From assembly GCF_003815535.1 (NCBI RefSeq), contig NZ_RPFZ01000001.1:2232001-2296000 (forward strand): DNA of 64,000 nt, read 5' to 3'. A program made the translations under genes and the position numbers. Source of the stretch: Aurantiacibacter spongiae (GTDB lineage Bacteria; Pseudomonadota; Alphaproteobacteria; Sphingomonadales; Sphingomonadaceae). The notes under the pieces are model-generated. The model was not told the DNA's origin. It searched no databases and saw only the letters and a list, made by a program, of their open reading frames with translations. This document shows, piece after piece, positions 50,012-64,000 of the stretch (the stretch's first letter is position 1; each line of letters begins with the position of its first letter).

Positions 50012-50030
50012 TTGCCAAAGGTTGGGAAAT
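50012..50030 (+). promoter_or_regulatory. Predicted PspF-type upstream activating site
   Basis: TTGCCAAAGGTTGGGAAAT matches 63350-63368 in the pspF-pspA intergenic region at 16 of 19 positions (all three differences are in the central spacer). It overlaps a palindrome TGGGAAA-T-TTTCCCA (50023-50037). The site lies about 85-100 bases before the sigma-54 element, a normal enhancer distance. Confidence 0.6.
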
Positions 50031-50111
50031 TTTCCCACATGGCGGGTTCCCCTTCGGCCCGACATGACTGCCTGGTGAACGAGAATCGCAGAAATGCGCG
50101 GTTCTGCAAGT

Positions 50112-50128
50112 TTGGCACAGGGCCTGCA
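50112..50128 (+). promoter_or_regulatory. Predicted sigma-54 promoter of the small-peptide/PspC operon
   Basis: TTGGCACAGGGCCTGCA: -24 box TGGCAC and -12 box CTGCA, with GG and GC exactly 10 bases apart as the holoenzyme requires. Only the first T of the consensus TTGCA is changed. Expected transcript start near 50139, about 45 bases before the first ATG. Confidence 0.6.
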
Positions 50129-50182
50129 AAGCATGGGATACGAACCAATCACGGTTCGCATTCTGAGGGAAAGATACAGATC

Positions 50183-50311
50183 ATGACCACCACTTCGAAC
50201 TTCTCCGCCCGCCTGATGGCCGCCCTCGCCGCCGTCGCCATGACCGCCAGCCTGTTCGCCGCGAGCTTCTCCACGCCGCAGGCCAGCGTCTTCACCACCA
50301 TCCTGGCCTGA
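50183..50311 (+). CDS. 42-aa membrane peptide, first of a paralogous pair
   Basis: 42 aa from ATG 50183 (a longer in-frame reading from 50012 crosses the promoter). A basic N-terminus up to Arg10 precedes one predicted membrane helix (about residues 11-29), then a short tail STPQASVFTTILA. It aligns without gaps to the next gene with 18 of 42 identical residues. Translation signal GGGA is rather far (about 11 bases). Inferred to be an inner-membrane stress peptide because of the predicted sigma-54/PspF control and the PspC gene downstream; no known family recognised. Confidence 0.65.
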   Translation: MTTTSNFSARLMAALAAVAMTASLFAASFSTPQASVFTTILA

Positions 50312-50349
50312 GGCCGGAACCGCAACCGAACACCGAAAGGACTTTCAAG

Positions 50350-50478
50350 ATGACCAACTTCAACGCCGTTTCCACCCGCATCCTAGCCGGCCTGGGTGCC
50401 GTCACCATGACGCTGACGCTGATCGTCAGTAGCTTTGCCAATCCGCATGCGACCACCGTCGTGGGGATTCTGGCATGA
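50350..50478 (+). CDS. 42-aa membrane peptide, second of a paralogous pair
   Basis: 42 aa, ATG 50350 with AAAGGA 8 bases before it. Same length and plan as the preceding peptide: Ser8/Arg10, one hydrophobic helix (about 11-29), then FANPHATTVVGILA; both end in Ile-Leu-Ala. Too short for most gene finders. Its TGA overlaps the ATG of the PspC-domain gene (ATGA), so the three genes are one operon. Conservation between the copies at identical length, with synonymous and conservative changes, supports it being translated. Confidence 0.65.
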   Translation: MTNFNAVSTRILAGLGAVTMTLTLIVSSFANPHATTVVGILA

Positions 50479-50684
50479 GCCAGCTCGACAGGAAGCCCGG
50501 CAAATCCCCGGCGAAATTCCGTCTCGACAAACAGGACGGCAAGATCGCCGGGGTCTGCGCCGGTCTCGCCAATTATTTCGGCTTCGATATTACGATCGTG
50601 CGCGTCGTCTTCGTGCTTGGCGCCCTGCTGGGCTTTGGCAGCTTCGTGCTCATCTATCTGGCGATCTGGCTGCTGGCGAACTGA
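50475..50684 (+). CDS. Stand-alone PspC-domain membrane protein
   Basis: 69 aa. PspC core: FRLDKQDGKIAGVCAGLANYFGFDITIVRVVFVLG, then a second hydrophobic part LLGFGSFVLIYLAIWLL. A 17-residue basic N-terminus precedes it, and the C-terminal regulatory region of full PspC (125 aa at 61.6 kb) is missing. It resembles the minimal PspC/YthC-like module. Coupled to the 42-aa peptide gene by ATGA. A supporting role in envelope stress is inferred. Confidence 0.88.
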   Translation: MSQLDRKPGKSPAKFRLDKQDGKIAGVCAGLANYFGFDITIVRVVFVLGALLGFGSFVLIYLAIWLLAN

Positions 50685-60450: not shown

Positions 60451-60693
60451 CTACAGGTCCACCCCGCTGGCGATGGCCTCCAGCTTGCGGATGCGTTCCT
60501 TGAGGTCGGCTATCTCGATCCTCGCCATGCCCTCGCGCGATCCGTTCTCGAATTCGGGGAGGGGGCGGCGCAGGTCCAGCTCGCGGCGCTTGAGCGCCAG
60601 CCACTGGGTCCAGCCATACAGGGCCGCGCCCGCCAGGATGACCAGCGCGACGAGGCCGCTGGCAGCGATCAACAGGTCCACTTGCGTCATCAT
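60451..60693 (-). CDS. PspB-like small membrane protein 4
   Basis: 80 aa. One hydrophobic segment (about 7-30, [28 protein letters not shown]) then a charged helix ADLKERIRKLEAIASG, the shortest and most diverged member of the four-gene PspB-like chain. ATG 60693 overlaps the preceding gene stop (ATGA); a second ATG follows at 60690. Probably N-out membrane protein with a cytoplasmic coiled coil. Confidence 0.75.
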   Translation of the reverse strand: MMTQVDLLIAASGLVALVILAGAALYGWTQWLALKRRELDLRRPLPEFENGSREGMARIEIADLKERIRKLEAIASGVDL

Positions 60694-60962
60694 CGGTTCC
60701 TTTCGGATTGACTGTCGTCACGCAGTTTCTCGATCTCGTCGGCGGTGCGGCGGGCCGGGTCGGTGGCGATGCGTTCCAGCACCGCGACGCGGTCGCGCAG
60801 CTCGTCGATCTCCTCGCGGTCGCGCCGGCGTTCCTCCAGCAACGCCTCGTTTTCCTGCGCCAGCCGGTTGTCGCCGGGTCCGGAAAACTTGTTCCGCTCC
60901 TTCAGGTAGCCGAAGATGGAGGCGATCAGGACGATGAGCACGATGGCCGGCCAGAAGCTCAT
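60690..60962 (-). CDS. PspB-like small membrane protein 3
   Basis: 90 aa from ATG 60962. Membrane helix residues about 4-19 (WPAIVLIVLIASIFGYL), then a coiled coil with the shared DELRDRVAVLERIATDPARRTADEIEKLRD. It overlaps both neighbours by 4 bases. Architecture matches PspB (short N-terminus, helix, acidic-basic coiled coil), but the sequence is not the canonical PspB at 61961-62254. Confidence 0.82.
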   Translation of the reverse strand: MSFWPAIVLIVLIASIFGYLKERNKFSGPGDNRLAQENEALLEERRRDREEIDELRDRVAVLERIATDPARRTADEIEKLRDDSQSERNR

Positions 60963-61255
60963 CGCGCGCGCTCCTTGTCCACCGCGCCCTCGATCCTGCG
61001 CAGATCCTCTATCTGCCGGGCAAGATCCTGTCCGCGATCGGTGACGATGCGTTCGAGCACGCGAACCCGCTCCTCCAGCTTGCGACCGGCGGGATCGGTG
61101 CCGCGCTCCGCCTCGGCCCGCCGCGCTTCCAGTTCCAGCTTGCGCTCCTCGTGCTCGTTCTGCCGCCTGCTCACGATGTAGGCGAAGGGCAGCGCGATCA
61201 TCAGGATGGCGATGATGAAGCCGAAGATCAGCATCAGGTCGGGATCGGGGCCCAT
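60959..61255 (-). CDS. PspB-like small membrane protein 2
   Basis: 98 aa. Membrane helix about 7-28 (LMLIFGFIIAILMIALPFAYIV), then the shared motif RKLEERVRVLERIVTDRGQDLARQIEDLRR, nearly identical to the same stretch of the preceding gene. TGATG overlap with the gene before and ATGA with the one after. Inferred inner-membrane partner of the Psp system. Confidence 0.85.
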   Translation of the reverse strand: MGPDPDLMLIFGFIIAILMIALPFAYIVSRRQNEHEERKLELEARRAEAERGTDPAGRKLEERVRVLERIVTDRGQDLARQIEDLRRIEGAVDKERAR

Positions 61256-61563
61256 CAGGCGCGTTCCTTCCTGCCGAAGTCCATCGGCACGCCGCTGTCT
61301 GCGTCCTCGACCCTGCGGCTGTCGCGCAACGCCTCGATCTGGGTGGCGACGTCGTAACCGCGATCGGTGACGATGCGTTCGAGCACCTGCACCCGGTCCT
61401 CCAGCTGCTGCACGCGACTGGCATATTGCGCGGCCTTCTCGGCGCTGTTCTCGGCGGTGGAGTGCAGATGCATTTCCGCCAGCTTCTGCTGATGCTTCGT
61501 CCAGATCGCCACGATCGGTATCATCAAGGCGATGATCGGTATGAATACGCCGATTTCCCCCAT
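61255..61563 (-). CDS. PspB-like small membrane protein 1
   Basis: 102 aa, first of the chain, ATG 61563 with AGGAG 7 bases upstream (23 bases after pspC). Helix about 3-21 (IGVFIPIIALMIPIVAIWT), then a longer coiled coil ending in QQLEDRVQVLERIVTDRGYDVATQIEALRD. Conserved RVxVLERIVTDRG is shared with the two genes after it. Role inferred from operon and fold. Confidence 0.85.
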   Translation of the reverse strand: MGEIGVFIPIIALMIPIVAIWTKHQQKLAEMHLHSTAENSAEKAAQYASRVQQLEDRVQVLERIVTDRGYDVATQIEALRDSRRVEDADSGVPMDFGRKERA

Positions 61564-61586: not shown

Positions 61587-61964
61587 TCAGCGCAGCCGTT
61601 CGATTTCGGCGGTCAGGCGCGGATTGCTGCTGACGTAGTAGTTCTCGACATCCGCCAGGCGGCGATCGACGTCCTTCATCCGGGCGCGGATCTCGCGGGC
61701 GGTGCGCTTCGGGTTCTGCCGCACGCCCTGCCAGTACTGCTGCTCGTCGTCGTCGCGGTAGAGGTGCGGCGGCTTCTTGTTCAGCAACAGTCCGGCGACG
61801 AAGTAGACCGGCAGGACCATGCCCATCCCGGCGAACAGGAGGACGACGAAGGCGATGCGTATCCAGAAGGCGTTGATGCCGGAATAGTCGGCGATGCCCG
61901 AGCACACGCCCATCAGCTTCGCATTCTGCTTGTCGCGATAGAGAGTGGTGCGGGGCGTGTTCAT
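61587..61964 (-). CDS. pspC: Phage shock protein PspC
   Basis: 125 aa from ATG 61964 (overlaps the pspB stop, ATGA). PspC domain: TLYRDKQNAKLMGVCSGIADYSGINAFWIRIAFVVLLFAGMGMVLPVYFVAGLLL, followed by a cytoplasmic coiled coil (about 80-120, RTAREIRARMKDVDRRLADVENYYV). Integral membrane sensor that binds PspA with PspB on envelope stress. The 69-aa version at 50.5 kb lacks the C-terminal part. Confidence 0.95.
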   Translation of the reverse strand: MNTPRTTLYRDKQNAKLMGVCSGIADYSGINAFWIRIAFVVLLFAGMGMVLPVYFVAGLLLNKKPPHLYRDDDEQQYWQGVRQNPKRTAREIRARMKDVDRRLADVENYYVSSNPRLTAEIERLR

Positions 61965-62254
61965 TTGCGGGCGTCCTTCTTCTCGGCGAGCAGTTCCTCG
62001 AGCTCGCGCAGCGGTGCATTGTCGATGGCCTTGTCGTGCTGGATGCGCGCCGGGCGGAAATCGGGATTGTCCTGCCCGACCAGCCGCTCGACCGTATCCA
62101 TGCGCTCGTCGAGGCGCTTGGCGAGGTTGTAGAGTTCCTCCAGCAACGCCTCGTCGTCGGTCGTGATGCTGGCAGAGGTCTTCCACTTCGTGATGTAGTG
62201 GAAGATGATCCAGGGAATGGCGATGAAGCACGCGGCTAACAGGAATTCTTCCAT
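61961..62254 (-). CDS. pspB: Phage shock protein PspB
   Basis: 97 aa. Membrane helix about 4-22 (FLLAACFIAIPWIIFHYITKW), then the PspB coiled coil LLEELYNLAKRLDERMDTVERLVGQDNPDFR. Three bases after the pspA stop. With PspC it recruits PspA away from PspF when the inner membrane is damaged. Confidence 0.94.
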   Translation of the reverse strand: MEEFLLAACFIAIPWIIFHYITKWKTSASITTDDEALLEELYNLAKRLDERMDTVERLVGQDNPDFRPARIQHDKAIDNAPLRELEELLAEKKDARK

Positions 62255-62257
62255 CGT

Positions 62258-62941
62258 CTATTCTCCCTTCTCGCCGTCGCCCTTGCCGAGCGCGCGCTTC
62301 ATTTCCTCGAGCTCGTCCTCGACCTTGTCGTTGCCTTCCAGCGCCGCGAATTCGTCGGCCAGGGTCTGCCGGTTCGATTCCATCCCCAGGGCATCGGCGC
62401 GCCCTTCCGCGTAATCGACGCGGCGTTCGAGCTGGTCGAAGCGGGTCAGCGCCTCGTCCACGCGCTCGTTGGTCATCAGGCTGCGCAGCTTCACGCGATT
62501 TTCTGCGCTTTCCAGCCGTGCGGCGATCTGGCTCTGGCGGCTGCGGGCCTCGTGCAGGCGGTGCTGCAGCTTGGCGATGTCCTGTTCGTAGGCGCGCAGC
62601 GCGTCGTCGAGCACCTCGATCTCCTGCTTGAGCTGGTCGGCCATGTCGCCGGCCTTGCGCTTCTCGACCAGCGCCGCGCGGGCGAGGTCTTCGCGATCCT
62701 TGGACAGGGCCAGCTGCGCCTTCTCGCCCCAGTCGGCCTGGAGCCGGTCGAGCTTCACCGTGTGGCGGTGCATTTCCTTCTGGTCGGCGATCGTGCGCGC
62801 GGCACTGGCGCGTACCTCGACCAGCGTTTCCTCCATTTCCATGATGATCATGCGGATCATCTTGGCCGGATCGTCGGCCTGATCGAGCAGTTCGTTGAAA
62901 TTGGCCGCGAAGATGTCGCGGGCGCGGTTGAATATTCCCAT
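62258..62941 (-). CDS. pspA: Phage shock protein PspA
   Basis: 227 aa from ATG 62941 (MGIFNRARDIFAANF), with GGAG 8 bases upstream, the standard N-terminal amphipathic helix of PspA/IM30. Family coiled coils follow: MIIMEMEETLVEVRASAARTIADQK and LARAALVEKRKAGDMADQLKQEIEVLD. ESCRT-III-like membrane repair protein and PspF inhibitor. The same frame is open to ATG 63091, which overlaps the stop of the 50-aa gene; that start adds 50 Pro/Ser/Arg-rich residues. Confidence 0.95.
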   Translation of the reverse strand: MGIFNRARDIFAANFNELLDQADDPAKMIRMIIMEMEETLVEVRASAARTIADQKEMHRHTVKLDRLQADWGEKAQLALSKDREDLARAALVEKRKAGDMADQLKQEIEVLDDALRAYEQDIAKLQHRLHEARSRQSQIAARLESAENRVKLRSLMTNERVDEALTRFDQLERRVDYAEGRADALGMESNRQTLADEFAALEGNDKVEDELEEMKRALGKGDGEKGE

Positions 62942-63087
62942 CAATGGGGCTCCTTGGTTGAACGCGCGGCCGGAAGAGGCGGTCGGGGTGGGGCTGGTGC
63001 GCAGCCGTTCGATCTCGCGATCGATGCGCGCGCCGTCGCTGGCCTTGCCGCCGCCGATCGGCATCAGCGGATTGCGCGGTTCGTTGG

Positions 63088-63240
63088 TCATGCCAGCTCC
63101 ACCATCTCGACGCCGGCGAGCACCGTCGTGCCGGCCTGATCCGGCTGGATACCGGCAAACACGGCGAAGGTCACCATTGCGGCGATGCTCACCAGGGCGG
63201 CATGGCCCAGCGGAGAGGAGAAGAAGCGGCTGTCGAACAT
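63088..63240 (-). CDS. 50-aa single-pass membrane peptide leading the psp operon
   Basis: 50 aa from ATG 63240, first gene downstream of the sigma-54 promoter. Short polar N-terminus, a hydrophobic helix (about 13-30, HAALVSIAAMVTFAVFAG), then GIQPDQAGTTVLAGVEMVELA. Same plan as the 42-aa peptides at 50.2 kb: helix, Pro, short tail ending Leu-Ala. Ribosome-binding site AAGGAAAA region close upstream. The stop overlaps the long pspA start (ATGA). No known family recognised. Confidence 0.7.
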   Translation of the reverse strand: MFDSRFFSSPLGHAALVSIAAMVTFAVFAGIQPDQAGTTVLAGVEMVELA

Positions 63241-63269: not shown

Positions 63270-63286
63270 TGCAAACTGCGTGCCAG
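63270..63286 (-). promoter_or_regulatory. Sigma-54 promoter of the psp operon
   Basis: On the minus strand CTGGCACGCAGTTTGCA: consensus YTGGCACG and TTGCA with exact 10-base GG/GC spacing. Expected start near 63259, 20 bases before the 50-aa gene ATG. One of the best matches possible. Confidence 0.9.
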
Positions 63287-63333: not shown

Positions 63334-63368
63334 TGGCAATTGGTTCCAGTTGCCAAGACTTGGGAAAT
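63334..63368. promoter_or_regulatory. Predicted PspF upstream activating sites
   Basis: Inverted repeat TGGCAA-N10-TTGCCA (63334-63355) overlapping TTGCCAAGACTTGGGAAAT (63350-63368), the latter repeated 16/19 at 50012. Centred about 85-100 bases upstream of the predicted psp transcript start, as bacterial enhancers are, and overlapping the pspF promoter. Confidence 0.65.
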
Positions 63369-63379
63369 CTCGCTAATAT
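63350..63379 (+). promoter_or_regulatory. Predicted pspF promoter
   Basis: TTGCCA (63350-63355) and TAATAT (63374-63379), 18 bases apart. Overlap with the activating sites implies autorepression by PspF, as known in E. coli. The expected start near 63386 touches the ATG, so the message may be leaderless. Confidence 0.5.
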
Positions 63380-63386
63380 CCGGGGA

Positions 63387-64000
63387 ATGGAGCGTGAAAC
63401 CCAGTTCATCGGCCAGTCCGGTGCCTTTCTCGATGCGGTCGAGCGGGCCAGCCGTGCGGCGACGCTGTCCAGGCCCGTGCTGGTAATCGGGGAACGCGGG
63501 ACCGGTAAAGAACTGATCGCCGAACGACTTCACCGCCTGTCCAACCGCTGGGGGGAACCGCTCGTCACCATGAATTGCGCGGCGCTCCCCGAAACGCTGA
63601 TCGAGGCGGAACTGTTCGGGCACGAACAGGGCGCGTTCACCGGCGCCACCAGGGCCAGGGAAGGGCGGTTCGAGGAGGCGGACAAGGGCACGCTGTTTCT
63701 CGACGAGCTGGGCACGCTCAGCATGGGGGCGCAGGAACGGCTGCTGCGCGCGGTCGAATACGGCGAGGTTACGCGCATCGGATCCTCGCGCCCGGTGCGG
63801 GTCGATGTCCGCATCGTCGCCGCCACCAACGAGGATCTGCCCGCCCGCGCGCACGACGGCACCTTCCGTCCCGACCTGCTCGACCGGTTGAGCTTCGAGG
63901 TCATCACCCTGCCGCCCCTGCGCGTGCGCGAGGGCGATATCGAGGTGCTGGCCGCGCATTTCGCCCGGCGCATGGCGGCGGAACTGGGATGGGAGGAATG
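63387..64000 (+). CDS. pspF: Sigma-54 activator PspF (3'-partial)
   Basis: 204 codons visible; the gene runs off the window end. AAA+ bacterial enhancer-binding protein without an N-terminal receiver domain: Walker A VLVIGERGTGKELIAERLH, GAFTGA loop (GHEQGAFTGATRA, contacting sigma-54), Walker B GTLFLDELGTLS, then VRIVAATNEDL and the arginine-finger region DLLDRLSFEVITLPPLR. The lack of a regulatory domain and the divergent psp operon identify PspF. It is held inactive by PspA. The C-terminal Fis-type DNA-binding domain lies beyond the window. Confidence 0.95.
   Translation, partial: MERETQFIGQSGAFLDAVERASRAATLSRPVLVIGERGTGKELIAERLHRLSNRWGEPLVTMNCAALPETLIEAELFGHEQGAFTGATRAREGRFEEADKGTLFLDELGTLSMGAQERLLRAVEYGEVTRIGSSRPVRVDVRIVAATNEDLPARAHDGTFRPDLLDRLSFEVITLPPLRVREGDIEVLAAHFARRMAAELGWEE

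Follow-up and report, generated by a model that had tools for sequence, protein, structure and literature searches.

The phage-shock response already holds a precedent for a second transcription unit under PspF: pspG is reported as an unlinked PspF target in Yersinia (PMC5596341), and a second PspF/sigma-54 unit that encodes a small membrane protein is known in E. coli and Yersinia. The contacts of PspC have been described in both organisms. In Yersinia, the C-terminal domain of PspC is reported to bind PspA and to free PspF (PMC5596341). In E. coli, the leucine zipper of PspC (residues 77-98) is required for PspA binding, the fragment PspC1-68 binds PspB (strongly) and not PspA, residues 40-68 bind PspG, and G48 is required for contact with both PspA and PspG, as given in the report on these interactions (PMC3068692). 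A 2024 survey of phage-shock systems reports PspB duplicates and Toastrack replacements; in its main text, "sphingomon" and "small membrane" each occur 0 times (PMC11237479). No description of an operon such as the one presented here was found in those parts of the openly licensed literature that our search covered.

Here, we describe a locus of Aurantiacibacter spongiae, termed operon 2, that we think likely to be a second PspF/sigma-54 phage-shock unit whose peptides and PspC-domain protein (mini-PspC) would serve as a PspG-like membrane effector or scaffold. It lies in the window, by which we mean the whole 64-kb stretch of DNA analyzed. Between positions 50013 and 50684, a PspF-type operator, a palindrome-like element, a sigma-54 element, two 42-codon open reading frames (ORFs) and a 69-codon PspC-domain ORF follow one another:

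50013..50040, + strand: putative PspF-type operator (UAS) of operon 2, the top matrix match in the 64-kb window (score 27.5)
50084..50103, + strand: palindrome-like element just 5' of the -24 element of operon 2; family consensus AATGGCGGAATTCCGCCATT, degenerate in A. spongiae
50113..50128, + strand: sigma-54 -24/-12 element TGGCACAGGGCCTGCA of operon 2, its pattern kept in 100/110 related loci
50183..50311, + strand: predicted small membrane peptide A (42 aa and a stop codon), of a peptide family under purifying selection
50350..50478, + strand: predicted small membrane peptide B (42 aa and a stop codon), similar to A
50475..50684, + strand: mini-PspC, 69 aa, PspC domain only (Pfam), ATGA-coupled to peptide B

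The divergent neighbor of the operon encodes a RecF/RecN/SMC Pfam domain, and a tRNA-Arg gene comes after the operon. An earlier note, made from the letters of this stretch, had described two paralogous 42-codon ORFs followed by an ATGA-coupled PspC-domain ORF, and we find the same: peptides A and B share 18/42 identities in an ungapped alignment, and the start of mini-PspC overlaps the stop of the peptide B ORF. That note had also called the operon unlinked. It is indeed a separate locus, yet it lies only about 13 kb from pspF; this distance is about 11 to 28 kb in the 10 same-genus genomes compared and about 840 kb in genome G437. The pspF-pspA region of the same genome contains the following features:

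63387..64000, + strand: pspF, truncated at the end of the window; in the genome, its match spans the family (E 4.6e-140)
63358..63385, - strand: putative PspF-type operator of the pspA operon, placed by matrix in the pspF-pspA interval
63270..63285, - strand: sigma-54 element TGGCACGCAGTTTGCA of the pspA operon
63088..63240, - strand: predicted small membrane peptide of 50 aa at the head of the pspA operon, in a layout like that of operon 2
62258..63091, - strand: pspA; usual MGIF start at 62941, extended in frame at the N terminus to the ATGA at 63091
61961..62254, - strand: pspB, by Pfam/NCBIfam
61587..61964, - strand: pspC, 125 aa, including the C-terminal region absent from mini-PspC

Several side observations concern this region. 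A short hydrophobic ORF leads the pspA operon in 30/32 loci (L177-L208; L183 was not scanned, and L178 has a different ORF). In the window, the PspA N-terminal extension (62941-63091, - strand) starts at an ATGA that overlaps the stop of the leader peptide and carries a motif like SRLDREIERLRTSPTPT; an in-frame ATGA or GTGA start is found in 30/32 of the same loci, L184 and L196 having a SRLDREIERLRTSPTPT-like motif without such a start and L178 a start without the motif. In PspA loci of other families, a stop mostly comes shortly before MGIF. In seven loci from other families of the order (L150, L152, L154, L156, L157, L174 and L176), an ORF of about 55 aa, beginning with MNIL or similar and mostly ending Arg-rich, lies between the pspA promoter and pspA in place of the membrane peptide. 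Four more short ORFs after pspC (60451-61563, - strand) have a hydrophobic start and a charged tail, a PspB-like layout, and none has a Pfam match at E 0.01. The leader peptide of the window was also considered as a third A/B paralogue and rejected (hhalign probability 0.2%, a comparison of low power given such short profiles).

The case for PspF control begins with a 19-base repeat, 50012-50030 against 63350-63368, to which the earlier note had drawn attention. The identity of 16/19 stands, but the aligned strands oppose the orientation of the promoters, the match using the strand that points to pspF. In the 64-kb window, sites of the 50012 type number just two at up to 3 mismatches, with 0.00 expected from shuffles. 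Genome-wide, TTGCCAA-N3-TTGGGAAAT is matched exactly only at operon 2 and the pspF-pspA interval, with 8 other places at 3 mismatches; at that level, the real pattern has 10 matches and its reversed control 7. When the two operators are read toward their own promoters, each begins 98 bp before TGGCAC. The same-orientation alignment of the two in A. spongiae is only 18/36 identical and falls below the reversed match, owing to the dyads of which the operator consists. The claim of a shared register rests on matrices drawn from the family, by which the pspA operator of the window reaches 15.2 at the register (shuffles: mean -30.0, sd 10.4).

For these, we compared the 150 bp upstream in 93 operon-2 promoters (82 nonredundant, from which the operator consensus was taken) and 57 usable pspA promoters out of 60 (54 nonredundant). 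The family pspA-promoter matrix finds its best match in operon-2 promoters at the same distance from the -24 element in 54/81 cases and within 2 nt of that register in 74/81, out of 113 possible offsets. In the reverse test, the operon-2 matrix falls exactly in register in 17/41 family pspA promoters and within 2 nt in 27/41 (123 offsets); on pspA promoters of other families of the order, its performance is weak (0/13 exact, 3/13 within 2 nt). A sphingomonad matrix built from 119 promoters, with the window's own excluded for the window scan, places operon 2 first and the pspF-pspA interval second in the 64 kb. In related genomes, the operator thus recurs ahead of these genes as well as between pspF and pspA, as the earlier note had proposed to look for. 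Tests with simple operator patterns gave partial recall only.

The same matrix was applied to E. coli K-12. Upstream of pspG it scores 19.2, the best place in 5 kb (next, 7.4), a convincing resemblance at the level of sequence. Upstream of pspA it scores 10.8, the best in 4.5 kb (next, 10.6), with 95% of shuffled intervals under 8.8; this match is marginal and would not convince by itself. Both places presumably coincide with the mapped PspF sites. The comparison suggests that the PspF operator is recognizable from Alpha- to Gammaproteobacteria.

The sigma-54 element was also as previously described: TGGCACAGGGCCTGCA lies at 50113-50128 with the spacing that had been given. As a motif by itself it was rejected as evidence, TGGCA-N7-TGC having 133 matches in the genome and 131 in the reversed control; its weight comes instead from conservation in 100/110 loci. 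These 110 loci, found with a mini-PspC profile, are the best 80 of 530 confirmed candidates from named genomes plus 30 from whole genomes, and the set is partly redundant by genome (e.g., L039 = L121). Among them, TGGCA[CT]-N6-TGC[ACT] occurs 100 to 600 bp upstream in 100 loci, with 0.5 expected from shuffles. Of the remaining ten, L042 has, by eye, the pattern with a final G; L125, scoring identically, probably represents that genome too; L063 offers too little sequence, and seven are without the pattern.

A sigma-54 -24/-12 promoter and, upstream of it, an operator of PspF type are thus both found at operon 2, and we consider PspF control of the operon, as the earlier note had proposed, to be well supported by this comparison. 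Co-occurrence of operon 2 with pspF adds nothing as a test, because pspF is near-universal in the order (381/396 genomes); it is also present in 30/30 operon-2-bearing genomes checked. It could be argued that some other sigma-54 activator controls the operon-2 promoter. First-look searches returned several PspF-like candidates per genome, of which one passed, so other sigma-54 activators are likely to be present; however, the operator shares its register with that of the pspF-pspA interval and is similar to the region upstream of E. coli pspG, and we regard control by another activator as very improbable.

The AATGGCGGAATTCCGCCATT element adjoins the -24 element in operon 2, where it averages 6.2/10 symmetric pairs, against a median of 2.6 elsewhere. 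The operon-2 matrix for this element falls in register in 23/41 family pspA promoters, where the element is not the strongest dyad. The A. spongiae genome has no match to AATGGCGGAATTCCGCCATT at up to 2 mismatches, its own copy being degenerate. A hairpin (covarying stem) was considered and rejected: pairing is slightly above shuffles (663/1148, against a shuffle mean of 624 and maximum of 660), and double changes are not above them (81, against a maximum of 83), so that there is little covariation. At up to 2 mismatches, AATGGCGGAATTCCGCCATT occurs at 11 places in 8 genomes, 4 of them operon 2 by position. The other 7 (L262-L268) have no sigma-54-like element within 1 kb and best operator scores of 4.4 to 9.7, and the palindrome was rejected as a marker of further regulon members; one of the places (L265) seems, by its sequence, to lie near a 16S rRNA gene.

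The layout of operon 2 recurs in many genera of the GTDB family Sphingomonadaceae: promoter, short ORF(s) and mini-PspC are found together in Alteraurantiacibacter, Croceibacterium, Qipengyuania, Erythrobacter, Novosphingobium and others, with a RecF-like motif divergent within 2.2 kb in 62/76 loci. Twenty further stretches from other genomes comprised 9 with promoter, short ORF and mini-PspC, 1 ambiguous, 5 with PspC-type ORFs and no sigma-54 site, and 5 without a PspC motif (one of these mis-aimed). A search of 289 genomes drawn from the class gave 3 matches at 1e-15, all in the same family and one of them the window's own. As an aside, L244, L245, L246 and L253 each have two adjacent PspC-domain ORFs and no sigma-54 site close by.

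Are the short ORFs genes? The earlier note had let its proposal hang on their conservation in frame, and they do recur in relatives. Peptides were picked in 93 distinct pattern-bearing loci (from the best 80 of 530 plus the 30) as ATG ORFs of 34 to 62 codons, with a hydrophobic stretch and few charges, between promoter and mini-PspC; one such ORF was found in 42 loci, two in 49 and three in 2. For the last peptide, pooled Nei-Gojobori dN/dS is 0.24 (121 pairs), and for the preceding one 0.30 (117 pairs), beside 0.22 for mini-PspC (109 pairs). These values are a summary and not a test, because pairs have genomes in common and so lack independence; in addition, the ORFs had been filtered by length and hydropathy. 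In shifted frames of the peptide ORFs, pN/pS is 1.1 to 2.2. On this comparison, the short ORFs are coding and under purifying selection on their amino acid sequence.

The alternative that they are leader ORFs, coupling or tuning downstream expression while the peptides have no function of their own, draws on the coupling geometry (in 60/93 loci, the stop of the last peptide reaches 4 bases into the start of the mini-PspC profile, the overlap expected of ATGA coupling) and on the short ORF that leads the pspA operon too. A pure leader would need neither purifying selection on amino acids nor the tandem copies that are kept, however, and we consider this alternative unlikely.

The 146 picked peptides are 37 to 50 aa long; 125 end in Ala and 106 in [ILV]A, 139 are free of Lys and Arg beyond residue 14, and 141 contain a Pro among their last 18 residues. 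Neither A nor B has a Pfam or NCBIfam match over the cut-off (B has Pfam matches below it only), and a search of 149 family genomes with a single peptide gave matches in 33 at E <= 1, many of them evidently by chance, inside long frames. AlphaFold2 predicts a helix at residues 3-28 of peptide A (mean pLDDT, 73.7). Among the first 15 peptides, Ser-Phe is conserved close to where the hydrophobic stretch ends, which might point to export, with cleavage after SF[AS]. A related thought is that the peptides depolarize the membrane, as does TisB, a stress-induced toxic micropeptide. In this regard, premature expression of YohP is reported to lower the proton-motive force and to raise PspA/PspC in E. 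coli (PMC12719787). However, other genera have a different sequence in place of SFA (e.g., AIVPASP), and both export and depolarization strike us as distinctly improbable.

Mini-PspC has the PspC domain (PF04024; E 3.3e-19, 68.9 bits against a cut-off of 25) and falls short of the full-length equivalog TIGR02978 (64.2 bits against a cut-off of 104). It aligns to the first part of PspC only and ends after the membrane segment, so that the C-terminal region is missing. The Gly aligned with E. coli PspC G48 is kept and is invariant in 5/5 and 11/11 sequences; the AlphaFold2 model is of low confidence (mean pLDDT, 62.8), with helices at 23-35 and 39-68. In this alignment, mini-PspC resembles E. 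coli PspC1-68. It may be seen as the natural counterpart of that laboratory fragment and offers a way to study the role of the PspC membrane segment without PspA contact. As it has no C-terminal leucine-zipper region, mini-PspC should not relay the inducing signal to PspF.

The main alternative starts from this same resemblance. Given the strong binding of E. coli PspC1-68 to PspB and not to PspA, mini-PspC could, within the same PspF regulon, compete with full-length PspC for PspB and so dampen or reset the response; made only after induction, it would yield negative feedback. Such a brake does not itself explain the conserved peptides (1 to 3 copies picked), and we hold it to be a doubtful, if reasonable, reading.

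We therefore favor operon 2 as a nonsignaling, PspG-like effector module, a reading that follows from the segment contacts known for E. coli PspC and from mini-PspC ending after the membrane segment. Membrane stress would free PspF from PspA; PspF would bind the conserved operator, some 98 bp ahead of the -24 element, and drive sigma-54 polymerase at the operon-2 promoter as well as at the pspA promoter. The resulting mRNA would give one to three membrane peptides of 37 to 50 aa and, through translational coupling, a protein consisting of the PspC domain only. The latter would retain the membrane segment through which E. coli PspC contacts PspB and PspG; lacking the leucine-zipper region, it would be unable to bind PspA, and no signal would pass to PspF. 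A PspG-like membrane effector or scaffold formed by mini-PspC and the peptides is the most likely role. As to function, our reasoned guess is that operon 2 probably helps cells withstand membrane damage.

One more speculative possibility goes further. A lineage-wide family of PspF-switched micropeptides, retained in one to three copies, and a naturally truncated, PspA-blind PspC might form a dedicated complex for membrane repair or the sealing of proton leaks, with the pspA leader as another, convergent micropeptide of this response. The [ILV]A tails (106/146 peptides) resemble degradation tags and, if they act as such, could clear the module once stress ends. We offer this extended version tentatively and would not expect all of it to hold.

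The proposal of a two-locus Psp regulon with small membrane peptides thus holds at the level of sequence, with pspG as an existing precedent for such a second unit. Operon 2 would add micropeptides that belong to no curated family to the phage-shock regulon of a large family of bacteria, and it offers for them a defined promoter, a candidate for a defined activator and an obvious partner. Stress-induced small membrane proteins of the YohP type, described as typically <50 aa with one membrane domain (PMC12719787), are like the operon-2 peptides in these respects; the latter differ in lying in an operon that has a PspF-type promoter and encodes a PspC partner. Compared with PspC (PF04024; TIGR02978), mini-PspC has the same domain and the conserved glycine and lacks the C-terminal region with the leucine zipper that E. 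coli PspC has. The peptides have no detectable homology to PspG, PspB or PspD, the peptide profile scoring -1.0 against E. coli PspG. PspG of E. coli and Yersinia is nevertheless the closest parallel: like operon 2 as read from its DNA, it combines a separate PspF-controlled sigma-54 promoter with a small inner-membrane protein. However, while pspG is a single gene for an 80-aa protein with two predicted membrane spans, operon 2 encodes one to three peptides of 37 to 50 aa together with a PspC-domain protein.
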